Below are positions 11,378-54,486 of a DNA stretch of 64,000 nucleotides, piece by piece. The notes beneath the pieces were generated by a model. It was not told the origin of the DNA and ran no database searches. It saw only the letters and a list, made by a program, of their open reading frames with translations. Every line of letters begins with the position of its first letter. The first letter of the stretch is position 1. This DNA comes from Pseudobutyrivibrio ruminis. Lineage in GTDB: Bacteria; Bacillota; Clostridia; Lachnospirales; Lachnospiraceae. The translations under genes were made by a program, and so were the position numbers. The DNA is taken from NCBI GenBank assembly GCA_015057305.1, contig SVES01000002.1, positions 62,001 through 126,000 on the forward strand, in the 5' to 3' direction.

Positions 11378-11449
11378 GGTTCCTTGGTCAAGCGGTTAAG
11401 ACGTCGCCCTCTCACGGCGAAAACAGCGGTTCGATTCCGCTAGGAACTG
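11378..11449 (+). tRNA. tRNA-Glu (anticodon CTC)
   Basis: A 72-nt cloverleaf: acceptor GGTTCCT/AGGAACT, D arm GTC...GAC, anticodon stem TCGCC/GGCGA with loop CTCTCAC (anticodon CTC), T arm AGCGG/CCGCT with loop TTCGATT, and discriminator G. The CCA end is not encoded. The CTC anticodon reads GAG codons and normally supplements a UUC-anticodon tRNA-Glu located elsewhere. The gene stands alone with its own promoter and terminator. Confidence 0.93.
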
Positions 11450-17120: not shown

Positions 17121-17209
17121 TTGATGTTATGAAAAATTTAAACGACCCTGAATAGATATCTAAATTAGTTTGTAACATACAATGATTTATCCTTTGAAAG
17201 GAGCTTCCA

Positions 17210-17290
17210 GTGACCGTAAGAGGATTAATTATTGTCTGTGTAACAAGCGAGAGTAAGACTATTTTTCAGGCGGACTATAGGAGTGAATAA
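17210..17290 (+). CDS. Possible 26-residue leader peptide upstream of smc
   Basis: A GTG-started frame encodes 26 residues with a central hydrophobic run (GLIIVCVT) and a polar end. AAAGGAG stands seven bases ahead of the GTG, and its TAA overlaps the smc ATG by one base (TAATG), as for coupled genes. I recognise no family. The same DNA contains AACAAGC and CGGACTAT, shared with the hairpin elements upstream of der, gpsA and nrdG, so it may be untranslated leader instead. Confidence 0.3.
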   Translation: MTVRGLIIVCVTSESKTIFQADYRSE

Positions 17291-40190: not shown

Positions 40191-41503
40191 ATTCAAGTCA
40201 TAAAATAGCCCAGATTATGGAGGATAGCCCAGCAGAAAGGGTTGGACTGACTCCAGGGGATATTATAAAAAAAATAAATGATGTAGAGCTAGTAGACATT
40301 TTTGATTATCATTATTATTCTGATGATGCAGATATTACTGTGGAGCTTTTGCATGAGGATGGCACCACATCTTCTGTTTTTGTACAGAAGGAGGAAGGTG
40401 AAGATTTAGGCGTTATTTTCTGTAACGGTCTAATGGATGACTACAAATCATGCTCAAATAAATGTGCATTTTGTTTCATTGACCAAATGCCGCCAGGAAT
40501 GAGAGAAACTCTGTATTTCAAGGATGACGATACAAGGCTTTCTTTTTTGCAGGGAAATTATGTTACGCTTACCAATATGAAGATGGCAGATTTGGACAGA
40601 ATCATTGCCTACAAGCTTGGACCCATAAATATTTCAGTTCATGCTACTAATCCGGAGCTTAGAGTCAAACTGCTTCATAACAGATTCGCTGGTGATATTT
40701 TAGATAAGATTCGCAAGCTATACGAGGCTGGTATTCCTATGAATGCACAGGTAGTTGCATGTCCAGGGTTAAATGATGGTGCTGAGCTTGATAGAACCAT
40801 TTCTGATTTGCTTCAATTTGCACCAGTTATGAGTTCAATGTCTGTTGTGCCTGTAGGAGTGACAAAATATAGAGACGGTCTGTTTCCACTTCGAACCTAC
40901 ACAAAGGAGGAGGCAGGTAAGGTTATTGACCAGATTGAACATTGGCAACAAGAGGCCATGAAGCAAGTTGGCAATCATTTTGTTCAGGCTTCTGATGAGT
41001 GGTACATTCTAGCTGGGCGTCCGCTGCCAGAGGCCGATAGATACGATGGATTTATTCAGCTTGAAAACGGAGTCGGGATGCTTAGACTTCTTCATGAGGA
41101 GGTACTTGATGCCCTTGAAGACATTAAAAAGCCCCTCTTTATGAAAAAAAGGCATGTGACTATTGCCACAGGCAAGCTGGCCGCCCCATTTATGAAGGAG
41201 CTTGCCGACATCATCACTGAGAAATTCAATCGTGTCACTGTCGACGTGGTTACCATCACTAACGAATTCTTCGGTGAAGAAATCACAGTTTCCGGCCTCA
41301 TCACCGGACAAGATTTAATCAAACAGCTCAAAGAACGTGAGCTTGGCGATTCGCTCCTTCTATCATGCACAATGCTACGAAGTGGCGAAGAAGTCTTCTT
41401 GGACGACATTACGCTCTCAGAGCTCGAGCAAACTTTACAAGTTAAAACACGTATAGTACAATCAGACGGTCGCGATCTCGTATACGCGATTATAGGCAAA
41501 TAA
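40184..41503 (+). CDS. DUF512/PDZ radical SAM-like Fe-S protein
   Basis: A 439-residue protein: N-terminal PDZ-like domain (residues 1-65, SPAERVGLTPGDII), a radical-SAM-type cysteine triad CSNKCAFCF (C-x3-C-x2-C) near 90, a TIM-barrel region, and the C-terminal DUF512 domain. The family is strictly conserved next to der in clostridia but has no established reaction. The last 115 codons (41160-41503) switch to C-ending codons (ATC, GAC, GTC, TTC), unlike the rest of the gene, which hints at recombination or local selection. Confidence 0.86.
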   Translation: MLNSSHKIAQIMEDSPAERVGLTPGDIIKKINDVELVDIFDYHYYSDDADITVELLHEDGTTSSVFVQKEEGEDLGVIFCNGLMDDYKSCSNKCAFCFIDQMPPGMRETLYFKDDDTRLSFLQGNYVTLTNMKMADLDRIIAYKLGPINISVHATNPELRVKLLHNRFAGDILDKIRKLYEAGIPMNAQVVACPGLNDGAELDRTISDLLQFAPVMSSMSVVPVGVTKYRDGLFPLRTYTKEEAGKVIDQIEHWQQEAMKQVGNHFVQASDEWYILAGRPLPEADRYDGFIQLENGVGMLRLLHEEVLDALEDIKKPLFMKKRHVTIATGKLAAPFMKELADIITEKFNRVTVDVVTITNEFFGEEITVSGLITGQDLIKQLKERELGDSLLLSCTMLRSGEEVFLDDITLSELEQTLQVKTRIVQSDGRDLVYAIIGK

Positions 41504-41527
41504 TTCATGTTGAGTATAAAATCTTAC

Positions 41528-41594
41528 GTTAACAATGATTACGAATTCTTTCGTCGACTACATGTCTCCTTCAGAATTGAAATACATTGTTAAC
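41528..41594 (+). repeat. Inverted repeat downstream of the DUF512 gene
   Basis: GTTAACAATG (41528) pairs perfectly with CATTGTTAAC (41585); inside it AATTCT (41544) pairs with AGAATT (41573). No T-run follows, so it is a poor intrinsic terminator. It stands just upstream of the der hairpin element. Confidence 0.65.
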
Positions 41595-41640
41595 TAGATT
41601 TTGTCTTTACTGTATTTATAGAACTAGATTATTTAAGTGA

Positions 41641-41739
41641 GTAATCAGTAGTAAACAAGCTATTATTATTCTCAAGCGAAGCATTCCTCGCTGAGCGGAG
41701 AATACATAATGCTTGTTGACGTAACTGATTACGGACTAG
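41641..41739 (+). repeat. Hairpin element A upstream of der
   Basis: Outer stem GTAATCAGT/ACTGATTAC (41641-41649/41724-41732), inner stem AACAAGC/GCTTGTT (41654-41660/41711-41717), then ATTCTC/GAGAAT and CTC-AGCGA/TCGCT-GAG to a short tip. CGGACTAG follows at 41732-41739, just before the der ribosome site. The core matches element C (53876-53965) over 31 and 29 bases on either side of the tip. Confidence 0.85.
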
Positions 41740-41754
41740 GAAAAGAGGTAAGAT

Positions 41755-43080
41755 ATGGCAAGACCAGTGGTGGCGATAGTAGGTCGCCCTAATGTTGGTA
41801 AATCCACATTATTTAATGCACTCGCAGGAGAACGAATATCAATTGTTAAGGATACTCCAGGTGTAACTAGAGATAGAATTTACGCAGATATTTCATGGCT
41901 TAATTACGATTTTACTATGATTGATACAGGCGGTATTGAGCCAGATTCAAAGGATATCATTTTGTCTCAGATGAGGGAACAGGCTCAAATTGCTATTGAT
42001 ACGGCAGATGTAATCATTTTCCTTGTTGATGTTAAGCAGGGGCTGCAGGATAGCGACTCAAAGGTTGCGGACATGCTTAGACGTAGCCATAAGCCTGTAG
42101 TGCTTGTTGTTAATAAGGTAGATAGCTTTGAAAGAGACATGGCAGATGTCTATGAGTTTTACAATCTTGGTATTGGTGACCCTATTGCAATTTCCGCATC
42201 CAGTCGTCTAGGTTTTGGTGATATGCTTGATGTAGTCGTAAGCTATTTTCCAGAGCCAACTGAGAGTGAAGAGGAGGATGATACTCCAAAGATTGCTGTT
42301 ATTGGCAAACCTAATGTAGGTAAATCTTCACTAATCAATAAGCTTTGCGGTGAGGAACGTGTAATTGTATCCGATATTGCAGGCACAACTCGTGATGCAG
42401 TAGATACAAAGGTTCGTTACAATCACAAGGATTATATCTTTATTGATACAGCAGGCCTCCGTCGTAAGAGTAAAATAAAAGAGGATTTGGAGCGTTATTC
42501 TATAGTTAGAGCTGTTGCATCTGTAGAGAAGGCTGATGTGGTTATCATTATGATTGATGCCACAGAAGGTGTAACAGAGCAGGATGCAAAGATTGCCGGT
42601 ATTGCTCACGAACGTGGGAAGGGTATAATCATATGTGTAAACAAATGGGATGCCATTGAAAAGAATGACAAGACAATGAAGGAGCATGAGACAAAGATTC
42701 GCCAGATTCTTTCATTTATGCCTTATGCATCTATTCTTTTTATTTCAGTTAAGAGTGGTCAGCGACTTGGCAAGATTTACGAGACTATTGATGCTGTAAT
42801 CGAAAATAACTCAATGCGTATTGCCACTGGTGTTCTTAATGAAATTGTGTCAGAGGCAGTTGCACTTCAGCAGCCTCCTACAGATAAAGGTAAGAGACTT
42901 AAAATATTCTATACAACTCAGGTTGCAGTTAAGCCGCCTACATTTGTTATTTTTGTAAATGAGAAATATTTGATGCATTTTTCATATGTAAGATATTTAG
43001 AGAATAGAATTAGAGATGCCTTTGGCTTTGAAGGCACATCTTTAAAATTTATCATTAGAGAGCGAAAGGAAAACGAATAA
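41755..43080 (+). CDS. der: Ribosome biogenesis GTPase Der (EngA)
   Basis: Tandem-GTPase required for 50S assembly. The 441 residues have two G domains, each with a P-loop: GRPNVGKST (about 9-17) and GKPNVGKSS (about 185), with DTGG and DTAG switch motifs and NKVD and NKWD specificity motifs, and a C-terminal KH-like domain ([19 protein letters not shown]). GAGGTAAG precedes the ATG, immediately after hairpin element A. The stop overlaps the plsY start (TAATG). Confidence 0.96.
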
Positions 43081-43739
43081 TGGTTGTTGTGGGGAGAATT
43101 TTAGCATTAATTATTGGCTATCTGTTTGGAATGGTTTTAATGGGCTATCTCATTGGTAAATCAAAAAATATCGATTTGACAAAGGTCGGTAGCGGTAATG
43201 TAGGGTCCACTAACACAATGAGAAATCTTGGTGTGGCAGCTGGGTTAATTACCTTAGCCTGGGATTGCCTTAAATGTGTTGTTGCTGTATTTTTTGTTTG
43301 GCTAACCTTTGGACGTTTCGTGGAAAATGTAAATATCTACATGGTATACGCAGGACTTGGCTGTGTCCTTGGTCATGATTTTCCATTTTATATGCACTTT
43401 AAGGGTGGAAAAGGTGTGGCTTCAACCTTAGGCTTTATTATTGCGCTATTTCCAATTGGATTACCAGTTCCAGCTGGAATTTTTATTGCCCTTGTGGCTC
43501 TTACTCGTTACGTATCACTTGGTTCTATTATAGGCGAATTATCCTTTGCAATTGAAATTGTTGTAGCTGCCTACCTTGGTTTGCTATCTGACAAATATCC
43601 AGGAGGACAATTGAAGGAAGTGGTAATTATCTGCTGCATCGTTTCAGCTCTTTCAATTGCACTTCATCACGCAAATATTGTACGCTTGCTTAAGGGCACA
43701 GAAAACAAATTCTCGTTCCATCCAGAAACACGCGCCTAA
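43080..43739 (+). CDS. plsY: Glycerol-3-phosphate acyltransferase PlsY
   Basis: Membrane enzyme that moves the acyl group from acyl phosphate (made by PlsX) to glycerol-3-phosphate, the first committed step of phospholipid synthesis. The 219 residues have about six helices and the three active-site motifs GSGNVGSTNTMR, LGHDFPFYMHFKGGKGVA and, later, the ALHHANI segment. It is coupled to der by overlap, and gpsA, which makes its glycerol-3-phosphate, follows after hairpin element B. Confidence 0.95.
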   Translation: MVVVGRILALIIGYLFGMVLMGYLIGKSKNIDLTKVGSGNVGSTNTMRNLGVAAGLITLAWDCLKCVVAVFFVWLTFGRFVENVNIYMVYAGLGCVLGHDFPFYMHFKGGKGVASTLGFIIALFPIGLPVPAGIFIALVALTRYVSLGSIIGELSFAIEIVVAAYLGLLSDKYPGGQLKEVVIICCIVSALSIALHHANIVRLLKGTENKFSFHPETRA

Positions 43740-43785
43740 ATCCGTAACGCAACATTCGTGGATTAGGTAATTATTTATTCAAGGA

Positions 43786-43878
43786 GCTGGTAGTAAACAA
43801 GCTCTGAGGTTATTGAAGAAGCACATTCTTAGTGCTCTGAAATAACACTCAGGCTTGTTTGCGTAACCAGCGGACTAG
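43786..43878 (+). repeat. Hairpin element B upstream of gpsA
   Basis: Outer stem GCTGGT/ACCAGC (43786-43791/43866-43871), inner stem AACAAGC/GCTTGTT (43796-43802/43853-43859), then CTGAG-GTTATT/AATAAC-CTCAG with one bulged A, and a GCAC/GTGC tip (43821-43834). AGTA and TGCGTA fill the internal loop, as in element A. CGGACTAG (43871-43878) and the ribosome site AGAGG follow. The interior sequence differs from A and C while the pairing is kept. Confidence 0.82.
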
Positions 43879-43887
43879 AGGTATATA

Positions 43888-44910
43888 ATGGCAAGAATTA
43901 GTGTATTAGGAGCTGGTAGCTGGGGTATTGCTCTAGCTGTCATGCTCAATAAAAACGGTCATGAGGTAAAGGTGTGGTCTCATCGTCAGTCTCAGGTAGA
44001 TCAGATGAATGACACTCATACCAGTGACAAAATAAAGGGTGTTAAGCTTCCTGAGTCAATGGAGTTTACTGCCGATATTGAGTCTGCTGTAAAATCAGCA
44101 GATGTTATTTTGATGGCTGTTCCATCAAAGGCTACTAGAGAAACTGCTGAAAAGATTAAATCCTTTGTAAGTATTAATCAGATTTTTATTACTGTAACAA
44201 AGGGTATAGAAGAAGATACACTTTTTACCCAGACTGAAATATTGGAAGATGTATTAGGCAATGATAAAAAGATATGTGTACTTTCTGGACCTAGTCATGC
44301 AGAAGAGGTAGTAGTATTCAAGCCTACTCTTGTTGTTGCTGGTTCCACAGATAGACAGACTGCACTTTTTGTGCAGAATCTTTTTATGAACGAATACTTT
44401 AGAGTATATTCCTCACCAGATGTAAAAGGAATCGAGGTTGGTGCAGCTCTTAAGAATGTCATTGCTTTAGCTGCTGGTATGTCTGATGGCCTGGGCTTTG
44501 GTGATAATGCAAAGGCAGCACTTATTACCCGTGGTATTAAGGAAATATCACAGCTTGCAGTAGCCATGGGAGGACAGCCAAAGACCTTGGCTGGTCTTAC
44601 AGGCGTTGGTGATTTGATTGTTACATGCTCATCTATGCATTCTAGAAATAGAATGGCAGGATTTTATATTGGACAAGGTATGTCAAAAGATGAGGCTATG
44701 GATAAGGTAGCCATGGTTGTAGAAGGTGTTTATTCTGCTAAGGCTGCTAAGAAGCTTGCAGATAAATACAATATCGAAATGCCAATAGTAGAAATTGTAA
44801 ATGCTGTTCTTTTCGATGGGCTTGCAGCAAAGGATGCTGTGTATGAATTGATGACGCGTTCTAAAAAGGATGAATCATCAGATTTGGAGTGGGAGAATTG
44901 TAATGCATAG
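43888..44910 (+). CDS. gpsA: Glycerol-3-phosphate dehydrogenase (NAD(P)+)
   Basis: Reduces dihydroxyacetone phosphate to sn-glycerol-3-phosphate for phospholipids. The 340 residues open with the Rossmann motif GAGSWGIALA (8-17) and include SGPSHAEEV, GAALKNVIALAAG with the catalytic lysine, and LTGVGDLIVTCSS. Its product feeds PlsY, encoded just upstream. It overlaps the following DUF2207 gene by 8 bp. Confidence 0.95.
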   Translation: MARISVLGAGSWGIALAVMLNKNGHEVKVWSHRQSQVDQMNDTHTSDKIKGVKLPESMEFTADIESAVKSADVILMAVPSKATRETAEKIKSFVSINQIFITVTKGIEEDTLFTQTEILEDVLGNDKKICVLSGPSHAEEVVVFKPTLVVAGSTDRQTALFVQNLFMNEYFRVYSSPDVKGIEVGAALKNVIALAAGMSDGLGFGDNAKAALITRGIKEISQLAVAMGGQPKTLAGLTGVGDLIVTCSSMHSRNRMAGFYIGQGMSKDEAMDKVAMVVEGVYSAKAAKKLADKYNIEMPIVEIVNAVLFDGLAAKDAVYELMTRSKKDESSDLEWENCNA

Positions 44911-46675
44911 CAATAGAAAAAGTTGGTTAAGCTTTCTAGGTACATTATTTTTTATTCTAGGAATCATTACTCTTATCATTTCTGGCATCCTTATTTTAGG
45001 ACATATAATAAACTCTGTTAAATCTAACAACTCCAAGGCAGATGGCTTTTATATTGATTCTTATGAGGTCAATCTTGATGTTGATTCTAGCAATAAGATT
45101 CATGTTACTGAAAATATTACTGTTGATTTTTACGAGAGTGATCATCATGGGATTTTTAGATTTATTCCTGAGTGGCTTAAATACAAATCAAAAGACGGTA
45201 AAACAAATTCTAGGAGAGCAGAAATATCTAATATAGATGTAGAAGGCGTGGCTCATTCTTCTGATTTAATGTATGCAAGCTATTTTAATCAACGGGGATT
45301 AGATGATTTTACCGTAGATAAAATTCATGGAAAACAGCGTATAAAAATAGGAAATTCATATTACACCTTAGAAAAAGGTTTATATACCTACCAAATATCC
45401 TACGATTATGATATGAATGGAGATATTTACAAGGGATTTGATGAGCTTATTTTTCATGCCTTCGGTGATTACTGGGGTACTGAAATTAACGGTGCGAGAG
45501 TAAATATTAAACTTCCAAAGGATATCGATGCTTCCACTGTTATTTCATTTTTTGCTGATAAGAAACGTAAGAACGATATTACTTCATACGTTAACTACAA
45601 GGTTGACGGAAATATTATAACTGCCCAGGTTTCTGAGGATTATAAGCTTAATGGAGCTTTAACAGTTGATATAGAGCTTCCTGATGGTTATTTTACTGAT
45701 TCAAAGGTTACATACGGCAGCAAGGCTTTTATCTTTAGTGTAGTTTGTTTGGCATGCTTTTTAGGTTGCTTCTTTTTTTGGAACAAAAATAGGGATGGAG
45801 ATTTGCTTGGTGAGGAAACTACAGTAGCTACAGCACCAAATGGACTTGAAGCTGTTGAAATGGGCTATATTTATGGTGGAAGCGGTCAGCTTTTACTAAT
45901 TACTGTTATTCTTCAGCTGGCTACCAAGGGTTATATTAGAATTAAAAATCCTAGCAGTAAAACTAAACTAAAAATTGAAAAGACACCAAAGGTTGCAGAT
46001 AATCTATCTTATACTGAAAAGTTTGTATATGAGAATTTATTTAAAAAGGGTGATTCTGTTATACCAGCAGAGGATTCTCAAGTTGGTAAGCTTAATTCAA
46101 AGCTAACCAAAATGTTAGAGGAAAAATTTGATTCCAGCATTTACAATTTAAGATCATATGTTGAATATGTTTTTTCAAGTATTTTGTTTTTGGTAGCATG
46201 TATTTCCTTTTGTATGGGATATATTTTCTCGGAAGATATGCATCCAATGCTAAGATGGCTATTTTTGCCAGCCTTTGTATGTACAATTATTTCTGGATAT
46301 TTTGCTGTTAAAACACCAAAAAATAGTTCATATGGAAACCAAATGCATCAAAGAATAGAGGATTACAAGAATTATCTAAGCGCAATCAAGAAACAGGAGC
46401 TAGAAAAGGAAATTAAGGAAAATCCTGATTATTTTGATGAGATTCTTCCATATGCTTTTATACTTGGTGTATCCAAAAAGCTGGTTAAAAAATATGATTT
46501 TGAAGTAGATGCTACAAATCGATACTATAACTATACTGATAATATTACAACAAACGTCTATTATGATTATTCTAGCACAAGCTCTGGCTCTAGTTCTAGT
46601 TCGTCAGGCTGTGGAGGTGGATGCTCATCCTGTGGTGGAGGTTGTTCTTCCTGTGGTGGAGGCGGATCATGGTAA
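44903..46675 (+). CDS. DUF2207 membrane protein with Cys/Gly-rich C-terminal tail
   Basis: A 590-residue membrane protein: helix at about 12-35, an extracytoplasmic DUF2207 beta domain (about 50-265; VTENITVDFYE, HGIFRFIPEW), helix near 275-293, a cytosolic region, two helices near 410-455, and a helical segment. The end is low complexity: a Ser-rich stretch and then CGGGCSSCGGGCSSCGGGG with cysteines 570, 574, 577, 581 and 584. DUF2207 proteins often end in Gly-rich tails; the regular cysteines are the special feature. The frame extends 11 codons upstream inside gpsA, but ATG 44903 follows GGGAG. Its last codons overlap a radical SAM gene by 7 bp. Function unknown. Confidence 0.85.
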   Translation: MHSNRKSWLSFLGTLFFILGIITLIISGILILGHIINSVKSNNSKADGFYIDSYEVNLDVDSSNKIHVTENITVDFYESDHHGIFRFIPEWLKYKSKDGKTNSRRAEISNIDVEGVAHSSDLMYASYFNQRGLDDFTVDKIHGKQRIKIGNSYYTLEKGLYTYQISYDYDMNGDIYKGFDELIFHAFGDYWGTEINGARVNIKLPKDIDASTVISFFADKKRKNDITSYVNYKVDGNIITAQVSEDYKLNGALTVDIELPDGYFTDSKVTYGSKAFIFSVVCLACFLGCFFFWNKNRDGDLLGEETTVATAPNGLEAVEMGYIYGGSGQLLLITVILQLATKGYIRIKNPSSKTKLKIEKTPKVADNLSYTEKFVYENLFKKGDSVIPAEDSQVGKLNSKLTKMLEEKFDSSIYNLRSYVEYVFSSILFLVACISFCMGYIFSEDMHPMLRWLFLPAFVCTIISGYFAVKTPKNSSYGNQMHQRIEDYKNYLSAIKKQELEKEIKENPDYFDEILPYAFILGVSKKLVKKYDFEVDATNRYYNYTDNITTNVYYDYSSTSSGSSSSSSGCGGGCSSCGGGCSSCGGGGSW

Positions 46676-47655
46676 GAGAATTTGTATTACAATGGCATAT
46701 CAGCGAAGGCTGTAACCTTAAATGCTTGCACTGTTATCAAGAGGGACATGTACCGGTATCACTTAATAGAAAGCAGCTTTTTGACATTTTAAATCAATAC
46801 AGACAACTTCTTAAGGAACAGGGGATAAAAGGTCATATAAATATAACTGGAGGAGAACCACTGTGTTCTCCTCATTTTTTTGAGCTATTAGAGGTGTTTA
46901 AAAAGGACAAGGAGTTATATAGTTTTTCTATTCTTACAAATGGGACGCTGATTACTGATGAGATTGCAAGGAAGATTGCTAGCTTCGGTCCTGAGTATGT
47001 TCAAGTAAGCCTGGAGGGTGGCAAGAAGACTAACGACTATATCAGAGGCAAGGGCGTCTATAAAAAGGTTGCAAAGGCTGTAAAGCTACTGAAAAAATAC
47101 AATATATATGTTTCACTATCATTTACAGCAACAGCTCTAAATTATAAAGAATTGCCAAAGGTAGTAAGGTTTGCCAAAAGATATGGGGTGAACACAGTAT
47201 GGTCTGATAGATATATTCCATTGAATTCACCAGATATAAATCTATGCATGAATAAAGAACAAACAAAAGAATACTTGGATTTGATTACAAGGGAGAGCTT
47301 TGCATTAAAGCATGAGGGCTGTAAAACAGAGGTTGCTCTTTACAGGGCTTTGCAGTTTTTAAAAACAAATAATCTGCCTTATTCATGTACAGCAGGAAAA
47401 ACACTTTTGACTGTTATGGAAAATGGTGATTTGGTGCCTTGCAGACGGATGCCTATTGTGGTTGGAAATCTCCTTGAAAGCAATATGCTAGATTTTTATA
47501 AAAATTCAGACGTTTTAAAGATGCTTAGAGAAGATAGGGTGCCAGATGAATGTAGCGATTGTGATTACAGCGCATTCTGTAAGGGCGGTTTGAAATGTCT
47601 TACATATGCTACCTACGGGGATTTAAATCATAAGGATGAGGGCTGCTTTAATTAA
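46669..47655 (+). CDS. Radical SAM/SPASM-type protein, possible peptide maturase
   Basis: A 328-residue radical SAM enzyme with the cluster motif CNLKCLHC (cysteines 15, 19, 22), followed by NITGGEPL. The C-terminal region has at least seven cysteines arranged as in SPASM domains (SCTAGKT, LVPCRRMP, ECSDCDYSAFCKGGLKC, GCFN), which bind auxiliary Fe-S clusters in enzymes that modify peptides. ATG 46669 overlaps the DUF2207 stop (ATGGTAA), and the Gly-codon repeat GGTGGAGG of that gene doubles as the ribosome site. The overlap with a Cys/Gly-tail gene suggests that tail as its substrate (inference). Confidence 0.86.
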   Translation: MVREFVLQWHISEGCNLKCLHCYQEGHVPVSLNRKQLFDILNQYRQLLKEQGIKGHINITGGEPLCSPHFFELLEVFKKDKELYSFSILTNGTLITDEIARKIASFGPEYVQVSLEGGKKTNDYIRGKGVYKKVAKAVKLLKKYNIYVSLSFTATALNYKELPKVVRFAKRYGVNTVWSDRYIPLNSPDINLCMNKEQTKEYLDLITRESFALKHEGCKTEVALYRALQFLKTNNLPYSCTAGKTLLTVMENGDLVPCRRMPIVVGNLLESNMLDFYKNSDVLKMLREDRVPDECSDCDYSAFCKGGLKCLTYATYGDLNHKDEGCFN

Positions 47656-47667
47656 GGAAAAGTAGTA

Positions 47668-47701
47668 TTGACACACTTAAGTCAAAGTAGTATTATACTA
47701 C
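47668..47701 (+). promoter_or_regulatory. Promoter with palindromic operator
   Basis: TTGACA (47668-47673), 17 bases, TATTAT (47691-47696). Over the -10 box lies the dyad GTAGTAT-T-ATACTAC (47687-47701), a likely repressor site. It drives the four-gene membrane cluster that follows. Confidence 0.68.
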
Positions 47702-47726
47702 CAACAATTTAATAAGGGAGAAATAT

Positions 47727-48770
47727 ATGTATACAGAAGAACAACTGGCGTTAATGAAAAGATTCACATATTACCCTAAATTGGTTATTGCTGGTTTTTG
47801 GGTATTTGTAAGTAGTACAGCCTTAGAACTGTTTTTTCAGTTGTTTAATGCCATATTTTTAAATTATAAGACCGACTATGATATTTTAAGAACGAATATT
47901 TTTTCTACAATCATATTAACCTTTGCAGGAATACTAATAATTGTAGGATATACCGGAATATTTAGTTCATTCAAAAAGCAATTGTTTCTAGAGATTTATG
48001 ATAATTTAGATGTTGATTCAATTACAGAAAAACGTCTCAATCGGTTTGAAATCTTTCTTTGCCAAATTGGTAATTTAATAGCTTTTATAGGTATTTTTAC
48101 CAGTGTGTTAGTTGCATATGCCTTAGCAGATGAGTTTGAAGAAGAATATGATTTCAAAGCTTTAAATGGAAAAGTTCTAAGTGTTCTCTTAAGTATTATA
48201 GCAGCACTTTGCCTTACCTGTTTATTTGCAATGCACTGCGTTACAGGCCATGAACAAAGAGTGCAGCAATTTGAAAAAGCACAGGCAATGCTTGAGAGTG
48301 CCGATAAAGTTTTTCTAAAGTATAATGCTGAAGATTCTCATACCTTTGGATTCGACAAAGACTCTTTGCATTTTTCTCTAAGTGAATATTGGAATTATTG
48401 TAAAGATGATGAGTATTGTATTTCATTCAATCTAGACAAGGATGATTTTCTTGTTTCCACTGTAAACATGGACTTTGATTTTGACGACTCAATGGACAGA
48501 GCCGAGCTTTATGATGATTTCGTGGAAGAATTCCATAATGCCACATCAGCATTCAAAGAAACCGAACTAAAATTTCAATATTCAGAAATGGGCTATGGGC
48601 TAACATTGCCAGAGAATTTTAAAGAGAATTTTATGAATTCGGAAGAGGGAACCTTTGAATATAGATACCAATTATCAAATGATGCAAGTGTTCATGTAGA
48701 TATTGAGAAGAATAAAGATTATGAAGGAAATAAATATATAAAGATTTCCTACCATATTTATAATTTTTAA
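47727..48770 (+). CDS. Unknown membrane protein
   Basis: A 347-residue protein I do not recognise. Four hydrophobic helices (about 18-45, 56-80, 107-132 and 147-170) occupy the first half; the second half (175-347) is a soluble acidic domain rich in Asp, Glu, Phe and Tyr (for example DFDFDDSMDRAELYDDF). TAAGGGAG precedes the ATG. It is 15 bp from the DUF3137 gene and follows a promoter of its own, so it belongs with the LemA group. No metal or nucleotide motif is visible. Confidence 0.75.
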   Translation: MYTEEQLALMKRFTYYPKLVIAGFWVFVSSTALELFFQLFNAIFLNYKTDYDILRTNIFSTIILTFAGILIIVGYTGIFSSFKKQLFLEIYDNLDVDSITEKRLNRFEIFLCQIGNLIAFIGIFTSVLVAYALADEFEEEYDFKALNGKVLSVLLSIIAALCLTCLFAMHCVTGHEQRVQQFEKAQAMLESADKVFLKYNAEDSHTFGFDKDSLHFSLSEYWNYCKDDEYCISFNLDKDDFLVSTVNMDFDFDDSMDRAELYDDFVEEFHNATSAFKETELKFQYSEMGYGLTLPENFKENFMNSEEGTFEYRYQLSNDASVHVDIEKNKDYEGNKYIKISYHIYNF

Positions 48771-48785
48771 TGAAGGGGAAATATA

Positions 48786-49700
48786 ATGGAAAATAATGTT
48801 GATTTTTTAGATATGAAAAAGAAGATGCTTATTTCAAAGGTGCTTTTAGTTATTGGCGTTGTCTTTGCAGTTTTGGGCTATCTTTCTTATAAATTAGCAG
48901 GCTTTGGACTTGGAATTGTTTTTTTGCTTGCAGGATTTGGCCTTGCTTTTGTAGGAGGAAAATTTAGTAGTGATTTTAAAAATGATTTTACAGATCAGGT
49001 TATGATTCCTACTATTCAAAGCATATTTCCAAATTCCACATTTATTGTGTATTTGGATGATAAACGAATTACAGAGCATTTTAAAAAGCTTGGAATGATT
49101 CGTAGGGATAGTTGTGAGAGAATCACTAATTTGCTTGCTGTTGAAACAGGTGGGCATCTTCTTAATGAGTTTTCATGTGAAGAATATCATGAAGTCCCTA
49201 ATCCAAAGGGTGCCGTAAACAACATATATACTTATAAGGGAACAGAGTTTAGATATGATTATGCCACTAATATAGATGGTGTAGTTAGAATTCTTTCCAG
49301 TCATAAGAATAAGCTTTCAAACAGTGAAAAGACTTTCCTTCCTAAGGAATGCAATTTCACACCTGAAAAAATCGAGACAGGAAACATTGAATTAGATGAA
49401 AGTTTTGAGATTTTTGCAAGCTCACAGCATATTGGATTTTTTGTTTTGAATTCTACTGTTATAGAAAAGATAAAGCTTTTTAGAGAAAAATATGGAGACT
49501 TTGGTATTGCTATTACAGGGGATGAATTGTTTATTTCTTTCGATGGTGTAGATAGATTTATAAAGCTTCCAGACAAGGTTTCTCAGATTAATGAAGATGC
49601 ATTTAAAAATGCAAAGGATCAGATTTATGATATTGTAGAAATGCTTAACGACATTGGATATGCGATTTCTAAACATGTAGAAAAAGAGAATATAATTTAA
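48786..49700 (+). CDS. DUF3137 family membrane protein
   Basis: A 304-residue protein with two adjacent N-terminal helices (about 15-32 and 38-56) and a cytosolic DUF3137 domain with the pattern FSCEEYHEVP, then SQHIGFFVLNS and DELFISFDG near the end. DUF3137 genes commonly neighbour lemA, as here. Its role is unknown; a part in cell-envelope maintenance is inferred from context only. Confidence 0.78.
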   Translation: MENNVDFLDMKKKMLISKVLLVIGVVFAVLGYLSYKLAGFGLGIVFLLAGFGLAFVGGKFSSDFKNDFTDQVMIPTIQSIFPNSTFIVYLDDKRITEHFKKLGMIRRDSCERITNLLAVETGGHLLNEFSCEEYHEVPNPKGAVNNIYTYKGTEFRYDYATNIDGVVRILSSHKNKLSNSEKTFLPKECNFTPEKIETGNIELDESFEIFASSQHIGFFVLNSTVIEKIKLFREKYGDFGIAITGDELFISFDGVDRFIKLPDKVSQINEDAFKNAKDQIYDIVEMLNDIGYAISKHVEKENII

Positions 49701-49735
49701 AATGAATGGGAGCAGATTTTGAAAGGAGAAGTATT

Positions 49736-50287
49736 ATGACAGGATTAATTATTGTAGGAGTCATTGTTTTAGTAGTTGTAATTATTGCAATTTGGTTTGT
49801 GAAGGTTTCTAACAATTTTAAGAGACTTGGGACTACGGTGGAGCAGACAAAAGCAGATATCGAAGTTTACATGATAAAAAGATATGATGTACTTATGAAT
49901 TCTATGAAGACTGCAAAGGAATTTGCAAGTCATGAGGAGGATGTTTTTTCTAAGCTTGTAGAAATAAGAAAGGGAATGGATTTTAACAAACTTTCTGAGC
50001 AGGCTGCACTTCAGGAGGAAGCATCAAGAAGTATTTTTGCCTTAGCAGAAGCATATCCAGAGCTTAAATCTACAGAACTATTTGCAAATCTTCAAGTTCA
50101 GCTCTCTGATGAAAATGAGCATTATGCTGCTGCAAAGCGTTCGTACAATTCAAACGTATCCAGATTTAATAAAGAAGTTGTTGTATTTCCTAACAGCATT
50201 GTAGCTTCTATGACAGGTGTTAAGGAACTTCCTTTCTTCAAGGATGAAAAGGCTGAAGAAAAGAAAGAGGTATCATTAGATTTTTAA
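49736..50287 (+). CDS. LemA family protein
   Basis: A 183-residue protein with one N-terminal membrane helix (3-23) and a long helical bundle. The family signature appears in NNFKRLGTTVEQTKADIEV, the repeated KRYDVLMNSMKTAKEF segment, and SRFNKEVVVFPNSIVASM near the end. ATG 49736 is preferred to an upstream in-frame start at 49706 because of GAAAGGAGAA. LemA proteins are widespread with unclear function, often next to DUF2207 and DUF3137 genes, both present in this cluster. Confidence 0.9.
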   Translation: MTGLIIVGVIVLVVVIIAIWFVKVSNNFKRLGTTVEQTKADIEVYMIKRYDVLMNSMKTAKEFASHEEDVFSKLVEIRKGMDFNKLSEQAALQEEASRSIFALAEAYPELKSTELFANLQVQLSDENEHYAAAKRSYNSNVSRFNKEVVVFPNSIVASMTGVKELPFFKDEKAEEKKEVSLDF

Positions 50288-50413
50288 TCTAAATAAAACC
50301 GAGAATCCAGCTTTGGTGATGGAAAATATCGCTTCAGAGAAAATTGATTTTTTAATTTAATATTTTATTGAATGGAGACAATGGTTTAAATAAAAATATA
50401 TGGGGGAAAACAG

Positions 50414-51490
50414 ATGTATGATGATGAATTAAATAACGAAGGCATAAAACGTTTGCCTGTTTTTGTAATTGGAGTACTTGGCGTACTTAATATTATTTTC
50501 GGTTTATATAGATTATATGTTGCGGTGACATATGAATGGGTAGGAAGATTAAATGAGCCCAATTTTAAGTTTGTAATAATCACATATGGATTTTTTATTC
50601 TTTTAGGAATAATTTTTTTATTTTTGGCAAATAGATTACTTCATAGATTGCTGCCAACAGCTGATGATATAGAGACTAGAAATAAAAGAAAAGAAAAGGC
50701 ATTAATGGCTAGAGAAGCTAAAATACAAGCCAAAGAAGCTATGGGACGTGAAAAACGGGCAAAGCTAGCTCAAGAGCGGGCAGCAAAGTACAATGAATTG
50801 CAGCATAAAAAGGAAGAAGAACAATTTGAAAGACTTAAAGTAGAATTTGCAACCCAGGCCATAAATCAAAACAACCAGAATACTGATGGACCAACATCTT
50901 TCCCTGTTGAGCTTCATTTCTTTGAAAAGCCTTTTGTTTTGCTAAATTTTATAAAATATGGTGGAGCATTTATTGCTGCAGCAACCACTATCTATGGAAT
51001 TCATCATATAAAATATATGGAGACCATATATAGCCGGCCTCAGGATGATAACAAATTTTATCTGTTTTTATTTATCACTATAGTACTTTTCTGGATAGGG
51101 CTTATTTTATGGATAATAGGCGGCAACTTTAAGTTTTCTTCAAATAATTGCTGTATAGCAAATAGAAATGGACAATTATATATTGTTTACCTGAAAAGAG
51201 AACGTATTGCAGAATCTCTGCCAGTAAAAGGATTTTTTAGTCATGGAGTCGTAGGAAAGTTGGTTAATTCCATTGCAACTATTGTTTTAGCTAATGAGTA
51301 TCATAATAAGCTTTTAGCGAATTTAAAAGCAGCTGATTTTAATGAAACTGTTAGAAGAATGATTGAAGAAGGGGAATATAACAGCCTGGTTGATGTTATG
51401 CCTTTAAATAAAAACAATAAAAAGATTGATAAATGGTACGTTAAATATATAACCCGTAAATATTATAAAGAGAAAATGGCTAAAATATGA
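50414..51490 (+). CDS. Unknown membrane protein with central coiled coil
   Basis: A 358-residue protein I do not recognise. It has helices at about 15-40 and 50-75, then a charged, likely coiled-coil region (about 85-150; Lys/Glu/Ala-rich, such as REAKIQAKEAMGREKRAKL), two further helices near 180-205 and 218-240, and a soluble C-terminus. A GGGGGAAA ribosome site precedes the ATG. It closes the envelope cluster that starts at 47727 and shares the two-plus-two helix layout with the 47727 protein, though I see no clear sequence similarity. Confidence 0.72.
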   Translation: MYDDELNNEGIKRLPVFVIGVLGVLNIIFGLYRLYVAVTYEWVGRLNEPNFKFVIITYGFFILLGIIFLFLANRLLHRLLPTADDIETRNKRKEKALMAREAKIQAKEAMGREKRAKLAQERAAKYNELQHKKEEEQFERLKVEFATQAINQNNQNTDGPTSFPVELHFFEKPFVLLNFIKYGGAFIAAATTIYGIHHIKYMETIYSRPQDDNKFYLFLFITIVLFWIGLILWIIGGNFKFSSNNCCIANRNGQLYIVYLKRERIAESLPVKGFFSHGVVGKLVNSIATIVLANEYHNKLLANLKAADFNETVRRMIEEGEYNSLVDVMPLNKNNKKIDKWYVKYITRKYYKEKMAKI

Positions 51491-51528
51491 TTGAATTGTG
51501 AAACTTTATTTTGTGGTGCATTAACGTA

Positions 51529-51589
51529 TTGACTACTAGATGATGTGGTGGTAGTATAATTCTATCAACACAACATCTAGTAGTTTTTT
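51529..51589 (+). promoter_or_regulatory. Inverted repeat around the nrdD promoter region; possible NrdR site or terminator
   Basis: TTGACT (51529) lies 20 bases before TATAAT (17 before TAGTAT). CTACTAGATG (51533-51542) and CATCTAGTAG (51574-51583) form a perfect 10-bp stem enclosing the -10, and a six-T run follows. The segment ACACAACATCTAGTAG (51568-51583) matches about 12 of 16 positions of the NrdR box as I recall it. It could be an operator for nrdDG, a terminator for the upstream gene, or both. Confidence 0.45.
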
Positions 51590-51664
51590 ATTTACAGGAA
51601 ACAAGATGTTGACAGAATATTATATACAAATGCAATTATTTTTAGATAAAACCCGGAGGTTATG

Positions 51665-53788
51665 ATGGAAAGATTTGTTGTTAAAAAGGATGGAGCCTTA
51701 GAAGCTTTTAATGTACAAAAGGTGGTTGATGCTGTTAGTAAATCAGCTACTAGAGTGCTTGTAAAATTTACACCTGAGCAGGAAAAGTTTATATGTCAAT
51801 TTGTTGAGGAAAGAGTGGAGGAGCTTGGCCTTGAAAAAATTGAAATTGCACAGATGCACAATATTGTTGAAGGCGCTTTGGAACGTGTTAATCCAATGGT
51901 TGCAAAGTCTTATAGGGATTATCGTAACTATAAGCAAGATTTTGTACAGATGCTGGATGACGTTTATAAAAAGTCTCAGAATATCATGTACATTGGGGAT
52001 AAAGAGAACTCTAATACGGATTCAGCTCTTGTATCTACGAAGCGCTCGTTAATTTTTAATGAGCTTAATCGTGAGCTATATAAAAAGTTCTTCCTTACAA
52101 CTGAGGAGATTCAGGCAATTCGTGACGGATATATCTACATTCATGATATGAATGCCAGACGAGATACTATGAATTGCTGTTTGTTTGATGTTAAATCAGT
52201 TCTCGAGGGTGGCTTTGAGATGGGTAACATCTTCTACAATGAGCCAAAGAGTCTTGATGTAGCCTTTGATGTTATTGGTGATATTGTTCTTTCTGCAGCA
52301 AGTCAGCAGTATGGTGGCTTCACAATACCACAGGCTGACGAGATTCTTGAAAAATATGCTCAGAAATCTTATGACAAATATATGGAAAAATACTTAAATC
52401 TTGGTATTGATAAGGACAAGGCTCACGAAGTCTCTATGGCTGAGGTACAAAGAGAGATGGAACAGGGCTTCCAGGGCTGGGAGTACAAGTTTAATACTGT
52501 TGCATCGAGCCGAGGAGATTATCCATTTATTACAGTTACTATCGGTCTTGGCACATCCACATTTGCAAAGATGGCATCTAAAGCCTGCCTTAAGGTTCGT
52601 TCTATCGGCCAGGGCAAGCCAGGATTCAAAAAGCCAGTTCTTTTCCCTAAGGTAGTATTTCTTTATGATGAAAATTTACACGGTCCAGGAAAAGAGCTTG
52701 AGGATGTGTTTGAAGCAGGAATCGACTGCTCTAGAAAGACTATGTATCCTGATTGGCTTTCACTTACAGGTGAGGGCTATATTGCAAGCATGTACAAAAA
52801 ATATGGCAAGGTTATATCACCTATGGGGTGCCGTGCATTTCTTTCCCCTTGGTATGAAAGAGGCGGCATGAAGCCGGCAGATGACAATGATGAGCCTGTA
52901 TTTATTGGTAGATTTAATATTGGTGCTGTTTCACTTCATCTTCCAATGATTCTTGCAAAATCAAGACAGGAATCAAGAGATTTCTACGAGGTGCTTGATT
53001 ACTATTTGGAGATGATTAGAAAGCTTCACATTCGTACCTATGCATACCTTGGAGAGATGCGTGCATCTACAAATCCACTTGCATACTGCGAAGGGGGCTT
53101 CTATGGCGGCCACCTTGGCTTCCACGACAAGATTAAGCCACTTTTAAAGGCTGCCACAGCATCCTTTGGAATTACAGCATTTAATGAGCTCCAGGAACTC
53201 TACAATGGCAAATCCCTTGTTGAGGATGGAGAATTTGCACTCGAAGTTCTTAAGCATATCAACGAAAAGGTTAATCAGTTTAAGGAAGAGGATGGCAATC
53301 TTTATGCTATCTACGGTACACCTGCTGAAAATCTTTGCGGCTTACAGATTAAACAGTTCAGAAATAAATATGGCCTTATTGAGAATGTTTCAGACAGACC
53401 TTATGTATCAAATTCATTCCACTGCCATGTAACAGAAGATATTACACCAATCCAAAAGCAGGATTTAGAGGGACGTTTCTGGGAGCTTTGTAATGGTGGT
53501 AAGATTCAGTATGTTCGTTATCCAATCAACTACAATCGTGAAGCTGTTAAGACCTTAGTTCGCAGAGCTATGGACAAGGGCTTCTATGAAGGCGTCAACC
53601 TATCACTTTCTTATTGTGATGACTGTGGTCACGAGGAGCTTGAAATGGATGTTTGCCCAGTATGTGGCAGCAAGAACCTTACCAAAATTGACCGCATGAA
53701 CGGATATTTATCATATTCACGTGTAAAGGGCGACACTCGCCTTAATGAAGCCAAAATGGCAGAAATAGCCGATCGAAAATCTATGTAA
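51665..53788 (+). CDS. nrdD: Anaerobic ribonucleoside-triphosphate reductase
   Basis: Class III glycyl-radical enzyme that makes deoxyribonucleotides without oxygen. The 707 residues show an N-terminal ATP-cone (1-95, VVKKDGALEAFNVQKVV), the barrel, and a C-terminal zinc site with four cysteines (CDDCGHEELEMDVCPVCG) followed by the glycyl-radical loop MNGYLSYSR. Of two adjacent ATGs, 51665 fits the GGAGG spacing better than 51662. The activase nrdG follows after hairpin element C. Confidence 0.95.
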   Translation: MERFVVKKDGALEAFNVQKVVDAVSKSATRVLVKFTPEQEKFICQFVEERVEELGLEKIEIAQMHNIVEGALERVNPMVAKSYRDYRNYKQDFVQMLDDVYKKSQNIMYIGDKENSNTDSALVSTKRSLIFNELNRELYKKFFLTTEEIQAIRDGYIYIHDMNARRDTMNCCLFDVKSVLEGGFEMGNIFYNEPKSLDVAFDVIGDIVLSAASQQYGGFTIPQADEILEKYAQKSYDKYMEKYLNLGIDKDKAHEVSMAEVQREMEQGFQGWEYKFNTVASSRGDYPFITVTIGLGTSTFAKMASKACLKVRSIGQGKPGFKKPVLFPKVVFLYDENLHGPGKELEDVFEAGIDCSRKTMYPDWLSLTGEGYIASMYKKYGKVISPMGCRAFLSPWYERGGMKPADDNDEPVFIGRFNIGAVSLHLPMILAKSRQESRDFYEVLDYYLEMIRKLHIRTYAYLGEMRASTNPLAYCEGGFYGGHLGFHDKIKPLLKAATASFGITAFNELQELYNGKSLVEDGEFALEVLKHINEKVNQFKEEDGNLYAIYGTPAENLCGLQIKQFRNKYGLIENVSDRPYVSNSFHCHVTEDITPIQKQDLEGRFWELCNGGKIQYVRYPINYNREAVKTLVRRAMDKGFYEGVNLSLSYCDDCGHEELEMDVCPVCGSKNLTKIDRMNGYLSYSRVKGDTRLNEAKMAEIADRKSM

Positions 53789-53822
53789 CGTGGCTAGCCG
53801 GTAGGCGGTGCACAGGCAATAT

Positions 53823-53857
53823 TAACGATAATAAATGAGCAGTTCATTATACGTTAG
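53823..53857 (+). repeat. Small hairpin between nrdD and element C
   Basis: TAACG and ATGA on the left pair with TCAT and CGTTA on the right, with A/T mismatches between them. No T-run follows. It is the second hairpin in the nrdD-nrdG spacer, as 41528-41594 is ahead of element A. Confidence 0.5.
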
Positions 53858-53875
53858 AGGAATTTCTCAGCGTGA

Positions 53876-53986
53876 GTAAACTGTAGCTAACAAGCTATTA
53901 TTATTCTCAAGCGAAGCATGTCGCTGAGCGGAGAATACATAATGCTTGTGAGCGTAACAGTTTACGTAAGTTAGACTGCGGACTTG
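53876..53986 (+). repeat. Hairpin element C upstream of nrdG
   Basis: Outer stem GTAAACTGT/ACAGTTTAC (53876-53884/53957-53965), inner stem AACAAG/CTTGT(G) with the same core as element A (31 and 29 identical bases around the tip). Its outer stem differs from that of A at two positions, each matched by a compensating change on the other arm. CGGACTTG (53979-53986) and GGAGA precede the nrdG start. Confidence 0.85.
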
Positions 53987-53994
53987 GAGATTAT

Positions 53995-54486
53995 ATGAAT
54001 TACCATAATATTACAAAAGACGACATGCTTAATGGTGATGGCTTACGTGTGGTCCTTTGGGTGGCAGGCTGCGACCATCATTGTAAGGAGTGTCAGAATC
54101 CTCAAACATGGGATCCTGATGGCGGCATCAAATTTGATGCTGCGGCAAAAGAAGAATTATACGAGTCATTATCTCGCGACTATATATCTGGTATCACGTT
54201 TAGTGGTGGAGATCCACTTTTTCCTGGCAATAGACAGGAAGTGACGGAGCTTGCCCGGGAGATTAGGGAGAGATTTCCCGGGAAGACCGTCTGGCTCTAC
54301 ACTGGTTTTACCTATGAGCAAATTAAAGAACTAGAAATTATGAAATATTTGGATGTTCTGGTTGACGGAGAATTTGAAATTGATAAGATAGATTTGCAGG
54401 CAAAATGGAGAGGCAGTATTAATCAAAGAGTAATTGATGTGCCTCAGACTAGAAATTTAGGTAAGCTTGTACTTGCTTGCGATTAA
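53995..54486 (+). CDS. nrdG: Anaerobic ribonucleotide reductase activating protein
   Basis: Radical SAM activase that creates the glycyl radical on NrdD. The 163 residues have CDHHCKECQNP (C-x3-C-x2-C) with the family partner motif TWDPDGG and FSGGDPL for SAM binding. Length is normal. The 206-bp spacer from nrdD, filled with hairpins, is long for a gene pair that is usually almost contiguous. Confidence 0.95.
   Translation: MNYHNITKDDMLNGDGLRVVLWVAGCDHHCKECQNPQTWDPDGGIKFDAAAKEELYESLSRDYISGITFSGGDPLFPGNRQEVTELAREIRERFPGKTVWLYTGFTYEQIKELEIMKYLDVLVDGEFEIDKIDLQAKWRGSINQRVIDVPQTRNLGKLVLACD

Follow-up and report, generated by a model that had tools for sequence, protein, structure and literature searches.

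A genus-restricted family of dispersed hairpin repeats in Pseudobutyrivibrio that may act as folded RNA in cis

Three genes of Pseudobutyrivibrio ruminis, der, gpsA and nrdG, are each preceded by a long hairpin with a similar core, which raises the question of what such a repeat is and at which level, RNA or DNA, its structure is kept. The window studied here is a stretch of 64,000 nt from assembly GCA_015057305.1 (contig SVES01000002.1, positions 62,001–126,000 of the forward strand); all coordinates refer to it. A sequence-only reading had described three elements in it, A, B and C. They are real, and two more are present. Copy A (41641–41732, forward strand) is found in the leader of der, 22 nt before its ATG, and scores 97.9 bits with our covariance model (E 3.3e-24). 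Copy B, first described at 43786–43871, is matched by the model at 43783–43874 (forward strand, 77.0 bits), 13 nt before the ATG of gpsA; on its other side there is a gene (43080–43739) which we take to be plsY and which had no NCBIfam family at E 1e-50. Copy C (53876–53965, forward strand, 97.1 bits) lies between nrdD and nrdG, 29 nt before the nrdG ATG. The three gene names are borne out by protein families over their cut-off: TIGR03594 for der, a ribosome biogenesis GTPase (41755–43080), NF000941 for gpsA, an NAD(P)H-dependent glycerol-3-phosphate dehydrogenase (43888–44910), and TIGR02491 for nrdG, the anaerobic ribonucleotide reductase activating protein (53995–54486), all on the forward strand. 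The fourth copy (41516–41604, reverse strand, 63.1 bits, E 1.3e-14) shares the der leader with A and is inverted relative to it; its counterparts in eight other species show compensatory changes. The fifth (17165–17251, forward strand, 43.9 bits, E 2.3e-9) is a diverged copy, ACAATGA...TTATTGT, with an ATG behind GGAG 38 nt downstream, as read from the sequence.

Direct reading agrees with what had been said of A, B and C. A and C have in common 31 nt (AACAAGC...GAAGCAT) and 29 nt (TCGCTGAG...GCTTGT). Their 9-bp outer stems, GTAATCAGT/ACTGATTAC in A and GTAAACTGT/ACAGTTTAC in C, differ at two positions, each time with the opposite arm changed to match, and B has a third outer stem, GCTGGT/ACCAGC. 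All three fold better than their shuffled sequences (z -5.3, -7.2 and -4.2), with none of 200 shuffles as good in any of them.

The complete hairpin is about 90 nt long. Outermost is a stem whose sequence is copy-specific. Next come an internal loop with one A facing GTA on the opposite arm, 3–4 bp of variable stem, the nearly invariant stem ACAAGC/GCTTGT and a T bulge. Further in, some 12 bp of stem lead to an AA/G loop, which 2 bp separate from a GA/GA-like loop, and a short stem forms the tip. The internal loop had been drawn as AGTA opposite xGCGTA: the loop exists, but it is better drawn as A opposite GTA followed by the variable stem and ACAAGC/GCTTGT. Our alignment of the P. ruminis genome has 93 distinct rows, of which 92 are copies and one is a reading of the opposite strand. 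The A/GTA loop is near-fixed in them, with A in 92 rows and G, T and A on the opposite side in 91, 90 and 91; the T bulge is found in 90. The base after GTA is G in 64 rows and A in 28. The loops near the tip are looser: the AA step has A in 80 and 85 rows, and the 5' side of the GA loop has G in 81 and A in 64. A further bulge at column 74 is not conserved, being absent in 31 of the 93 rows, and was therefore left out of the core. Such a fixed, unpaired core is probably recognised by a protein.

The repeat is abundant in its own genome. The bare pattern ACAAGC-N20..50-GCTTGT occurs at 78 places and its reversed control at 2; a few of the 78 (e.g. L001, L004, L007) are something other than this hairpin. 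A covariance model built from 13 copies gave 98 rows, which are 96 distinct places; a second model, built from 103 rows, gave 110, and once 14 opposite-strand readings of places already counted are taken off, the total is 96 here too. These figures together exclude chance. Both searches scored at most 150 candidates, so that 96 is a lower bound; the fifth copy of the window appeared solely when the window was scanned directly.

The taxonomic range is narrow. Matches are found in 28 of 29 genomes of Pseudobutyrivibrio, from 1 to more than 70 in each (counts above 70 are lower bounds), and in none of 32 genomes of other genera. When 10 candidates were scored per genome, a sample of the family (397 genomes, 334 genera) gave matches only in its two Pseudobutyrivibrio genomes, and a sample of the phylum (398 genomes) only in the genome studied here. 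A pattern scan of named genomes gave at least 103 loci, and all 80 among the matches listed are titled Pseudobutyrivibrio; three of the loci (L230, L243, L260) are the der site of this window, with flanks 79–89% identical. The only viral-contig match coincides in part with a predicted open reading frame, and the fold predicted for it has no ACAAGC/GCTTGT stem, so we do not propose a phage origin. The sequence-only reading knew of no described family with this core, and that still holds: at gathering score Rfam release 15 finds in the whole window only a tRNA (11378–11449), and a permissive scan of 41450–43950, which takes in three of the five copies (A, B and the fourth), gave only a chance microRNA match at 43649–43707 (E 0.23). 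Open-access papers, to which our search was confined, gave no description of this hairpin family.

The covariation of the two arms is overwhelming. In the P. ruminis genome 93.0% of 3337 cells pair and 32 of the 36 pairs have changes on both sides; the covariation score is 0.580, against 0.158 for shuffled alignments and 0.052–0.089 for slid structures. Support is weakest for the three outermost pairs and for columns 17/86, 38/66 and 45/58. The 128 distinct rows from relatives, which are not independent since they share orthologous sites, give similar figures: 91.4% of 4570 cells pair, 33 of 36 pairs are changed on both sides and the score is 0.551, against 0.143 when shuffled. As both alignments were fitted to the model, two further tests were used. 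One is free of alignment and is anchored on the invariant TA and GT (5 of the 96 copies have no such anchors and were dropped): in columns 4–7 of the outer arms 334 of 340 cells are paired, against 52.9% between arms of different copies and 60.0% in the best of 1000 shuffles; the 85 distinct arm sets include 70 different 5' arms. The other compares a single site. The paired differences between A and C had been taken as a sign of selected structure, but alone they are weak proof, because A and C are not orthologues; the orthologues at der are the proper test. There the inverted copy of the leader, followed through nine species, is 94.4% paired, with 15 of 34 pairs changed on both sides and a score of 0.373 against 0.135, which supports the claim.

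The position of the copies with respect to genes is also far from random. We considered open reading frames of at least 100 aa and a window of 80 nt upstream of their start. In the P. ruminis genome (n = 96) 47 copies within this distance are in the sense orientation and 2 in antisense (p 4.4e-12); in relatives (n = 124, after dropping 11 of 135 matches with short flanks or identical context) the numbers are 79 and 4 (p 4e-19). The loci of relatives were drawn with a pattern which misses the terminator-type foot, so that the proportions of the niches are biased in them, while the strand should not be. An earlier count with shorter open reading frames gave a similar picture of strand and position. 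The median distance to the start is 22 nt in the P. ruminis genome and 23 nt in relatives. Within 80 nt past an upstream stop we find 29 of the 47 leader copies and 44 of the 79, so most of them lie between two genes of the same direction. Away from starts the copies appear in both orientations. Placement just ahead of a gene, as originally proposed, is thus only part of the picture: 44 of the 96 copies are within 80 nt of the 3' end of a gene without being sense leaders, and 24 of the 96 stand between convergent genes. The sequence-only reading had named a lack of further copies, broken stems and random positions as what would speak against it; we find abundant copies, compensated stems and non-random positions, both in this genome and in its relatives.

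The genes behind the 47 sense leader copies are ordinary and unrelated; 16 were scanned against protein families and the other 31 were read by eye, and no common pathway is evident among them. The scanned genes include der, nrdG, deoC, smpB, lactate dehydrogenase, AICAR formyltransferase, fabZ, cobB, gpsA, cysK, uxuA, hypE and nrdR; part of a transketolase and an ABC ATPase have families only below cut-off, and one gene has no family at threshold. In several leader copies TTTAG(A)TGA upstream of the outer stem can pair, as judged by eye, with GGACTAGG downstream of it; such pairing would mask part of the ribosome-binding site.

At der the fourth copy of the window is antisense to the gene, and so are its counterparts in most aligned species. 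A promoter-like sequence, TTTACA-N17-TACAAT, is found at 41434–41462 (forward strand), within the end of the gene upstream of der, and all 28 genomes compared have TTTACA-N16..18-TANAAT upstream of the der site. Both der copies would therefore belong to a transcribed 5' leader. The upstream gene, whose 3' end holds the promoter-like site, matches family TIGR03279 only below cut-off, and the site is kept even in G011 and G024, whose upstream sequence differs.

Folding of the sense strand as RNA predicts that G·U pairs are tolerated and A·C mismatches are not. The ratio G·U:A·C is 50:15 in the P. ruminis genome and 108:10 in relatives. A single tip column (45/58), unpaired in 29 of 93 rows, accounts for nine of the 15 A·C cells in the P. 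ruminis genome; without it the ratio is 49:6. The anchored, alignment-free comparison gives 19:2 and 37:4 in the same two sets, and detection by the model favours G·U somewhat. The copies at the 3' ends of genes in relatives have a ratio of 30:3, so the excess is not tied to the leader niche. A contrast in the P. ruminis genome between leader copies (27:1) and 3'-end copies (18:14; Fisher p 0.0003) was set aside, because of that single tip column and because of the 30:3 in relatives. G·T is milder than A·C also in single-stranded DNA, so that the excess alone is compatible with a strand-specific DNA hairpin. Transcription also exposes the sense strand to C-to-T change, which could add some G·U. 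Together, the G·U excess and the strand bias point to folding in single-stranded form by one particular strand. Sense-strand RNA is a simpler reading than a strand-specific DNA hairpin, because near starts the folding strand is the sense strand of the next gene.

The occupancy of individual sites varies between genomes. Among 28 genomes the der site has a pair of copies in 7 (in G025 with the left hairpin deleted) and none in 13; in the other 8 there is a single copy, a remnant (G016) or a left copy whose right-hand partner differs (G011, G024). The gpsA site was compared in 27 genomes, with a copy in 14 and none in 13; G017 was kept outside the tree count, and the site could not be read in G001 and G023. 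On a tree of der and gpsA at least seven changes of state are needed at der and at least five at gpsA. The pair at der is inverted as a block in G006, and the single copy of G028 is in the other orientation. Even the close sisters G008 and G023 differ at der: their flanks (L138, L162) are 97–98% identical and the difference is a 220-nt leader block with two hairpins, a natural experiment.

At gpsA the outer stem GCTGG is kept (GCTAG in 2 of 14), with inner hairpins of quite different types between species. In the gpsA leaders of G028 and G014 (L184, L191) the inner hairpin is swapped for a different long stem, CCCTTTTT...AAAAAGGG, on a similar outer stem; the foot can therefore carry quite different tips. 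Nested copies were found in the P. ruminis genome (C99:6466) and at L059, L063, L311 and L315, with un-nested L254 and L270 at the same site. That the hairpin also spreads or is exchanged is shown by its presence or absence at given sites, by nesting and by tips that are almost identical between unrelated loci. Longer palindromic intergenic repeats, with blocks such as CTCCGTGCTCCCGCAGG and CTCGCGCTTGCCAAGG, stand beside the hairpins at L063, L270, L311 and L101 and seem to form a second family of dispersed repeats in the genus.

Our main reading is that these are Pseudobutyrivibrio-specific dispersed hairpin repeats which work as folded RNA in cis, to which we give a probability of about one half. 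A non-autonomous hairpin repeat would have spread in the genus, with inner hairpins exchanged between copies, and its RNA would now be under selection in transcripts; about half of the copies in the P. ruminis genome stand in sense just before a start codon. The sense transcript would fold into the hairpin, and its A/GTA loop would be recognised by a trans-acting RNA-binding protein or an endoribonuclease, RNase III or RNase Y for example. The bound protein might then process, protect or repress the messenger RNA and so set the processing, stability or translation of the downstream cistron; the 3' copies would be terminator or 3'-protection hairpins. The confidence just given refers to an RNA-level role as a whole and it is lower for any one enzyme. 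The sequence-only reading had offered a regulatory leader, an RNase III site or a miniature mobile element, any of which may apply; the strand bias and the G·U excess favour a role as RNA. Counting against it are the dispensability of the copies at given sites, as in the genomes with none at der or gpsA, leader genes with no evident common pathway, and the antisense copy at der. A bolder version, which we find doubtful at present, is a genus-wide post-transcriptional regulon: one dedicated RNA-binding protein or nuclease would read the A/GTA loop in dozens of messenger RNAs and set the cistron-specific processing or translation of unrelated housekeeping genes, the whole system having been domesticated from a mobile hairpin within one genus.

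The turnover of sites could also mean that the hairpin is a selfish, non-autonomous element of MITE or REP type, recognised by a transposase or recombinase in its single-stranded DNA form, its structure kept for mobility and any effect on messenger RNA being a by-product. The occupied and empty orthologous sites with their repeated changes, the near-identical inner hairpins of A and C at unrelated loci, the nested copies, the block inversion in G006 and the GTAG at the foot of many copies, as in REPs (PMC3733652), all fit this alternative, which we judge possible but on the unlikely side. Against it, no direct repeat of 4 nt or more was found at the junction in 99 comparisons of filled and empty sites, many at the same loci and hence not independent, and some probably losses rather than insertions. 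Y1 transposase PF01797, the sole transposase family searched, is present in only 10 of the 29 genomes of the genus, including that of P. ruminis; it was not found in the copy-rich, 99% complete G012 and others, where it may have been lost in the past. Since outer stems differ and inner parts match, it is attractive to suppose that the inner hairpin was inserted into an existing palindrome with a 3-bp GTA duplication. The empty palindromes that this predicts are absent: the leader form (exact pattern, one common subtype) was found in 0 of 29 genomes, and the terminator form (up to 3 mismatches) gave one match with 3 mismatches in the 29 genomes, against two for the reversed control. A mobile hairpin would moreover need a polar insertion mechanism to account for the sense bias at start codons, and pairing is kept by compensation at the same der site in nine species.

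The copies in convergent pairs suggest another role, that of plain intrinsic terminators or attenuators with long stems: TTTT closely follows the outer stem in 15 of the 24, and the outer stem is of GTTCC type in 14. As an account of the whole family it is improbable, as a T run is found in only 3 of the 47 leader copies and the GTTCC-type stem in none, and a terminator needs neither conserved internal loops nor a strand bias at starts. It is also conceivable that covariation arose without selection, by template-switch correction of quasi-palindromes or by gene conversion between copies. The inner hairpins at gpsA differ by type rather than by species, so the copies are not independent; but correction would erase mismatched loops and the A/GTA loop and T bulge persist, G·U is far above A·C, and paired changes are seen among copies at one site, der. 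We hold this very improbable. Least credible of all is a metabolite-sensing riboswitch or another ligand-binding leader. A structured RNA near the start codon with nearly invariant unpaired bases would suit it, but the hairpin is simple and unbranched, has no Rfam match, stands in dozens of copies before unrelated genes and has its interior replaced wholesale at gpsA.

Structured intergenic repeats are often regarded as parasitic, their effects as incidental. Here, marks of selection for sense-strand RNA occur side by side with marks of spread and loss, which makes the family suited to a direct test of whether a mobile repeat became a regulator. Nearly a hundred natural variants in one genome, together with occupied and empty sites in sister genomes, would make the effect of one hairpin on expression measurable many times, and the conserved loop is a clear bait for a protein partner. 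It is also a new, easily searched RNA family for the annotation of a rumen genus.

Several known repeats resemble it in part. The BOX and SPRITE repeats of Streptococcus pneumoniae, as the sections on them in PMC3049150 describe, are lineage-restricted and intergenic, fold tightly as RNA and are transcribed as 5' or 3' extensions of operons; SPRITE resembles a terminator, and BOX is modular (A-B-C), with terminal inverted repeats which pair together. The Pseudobutyrivibrio repeat is like them in its high copy number, its restriction to one lineage (1 of 334 genera in the family sample), its intergenic location and its conserved fold. From their position and the conserved promoter-like site at der we infer that its copies are transcribed with the neighbouring operon, as BOX is. 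It differs from what is described for BOX in being one hairpin with a fixed asymmetric loop, a sense bias at starts and copy-specific outer stems. The repeats bcr1–bcr18 of the Bacillus cereus group, in the parts of PMC6542083 and PMC3446304 that deal with them, are 100–400 bp long, are found in one group only and reach 130 copies for bcr1; about half of the copies in two strains are transcribed, often in UTRs or within operons, and some are proposed to be RNA elements. Confinement to one group, many copies and folding are common to both families. The mobility of bcr is, however, tied to a TTTAT motif, whereas no repeat is seen at the junctions of ours, which belongs to another taxon and has another core.

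The GTAG-tagged REPs with RAYT transposases measure 20–40 bp, most of their stems have 6–9 bp, and the phyla listed for them in the portion of PMC3733652 consulted do not include Firmicutes. Dispersed palindromes, sub-families with alternative complementary stem bases and, in many copies, the GTAG foot are shared with them. We do not assign our repeat to this class, as it has about 90 nt and a long bulged stem, its GTAG is not invariant and no Y1 transposase was found in many copy-rich genomes. The target-site duplication expected of MITEs of the DDE type was seen in 0 of the 99 comparisons, which overlap in loci. Stem-loop sequence families of 40 bacterial genomes also share a predicted RNA fold and are mostly intergenic (PMC2267715); in the sections of that report consulted none comes from Pseudobutyrivibrio and no strand-specific place before start codons is described. 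The many copies, their place and strand ahead of genes and the paired changes point to an undescribed family of structured RNA repeats which would act in messenger RNA. In its history it is best likened to BOX or bcr repeats, with copies gained and lost at individual sites and no target duplication seen.
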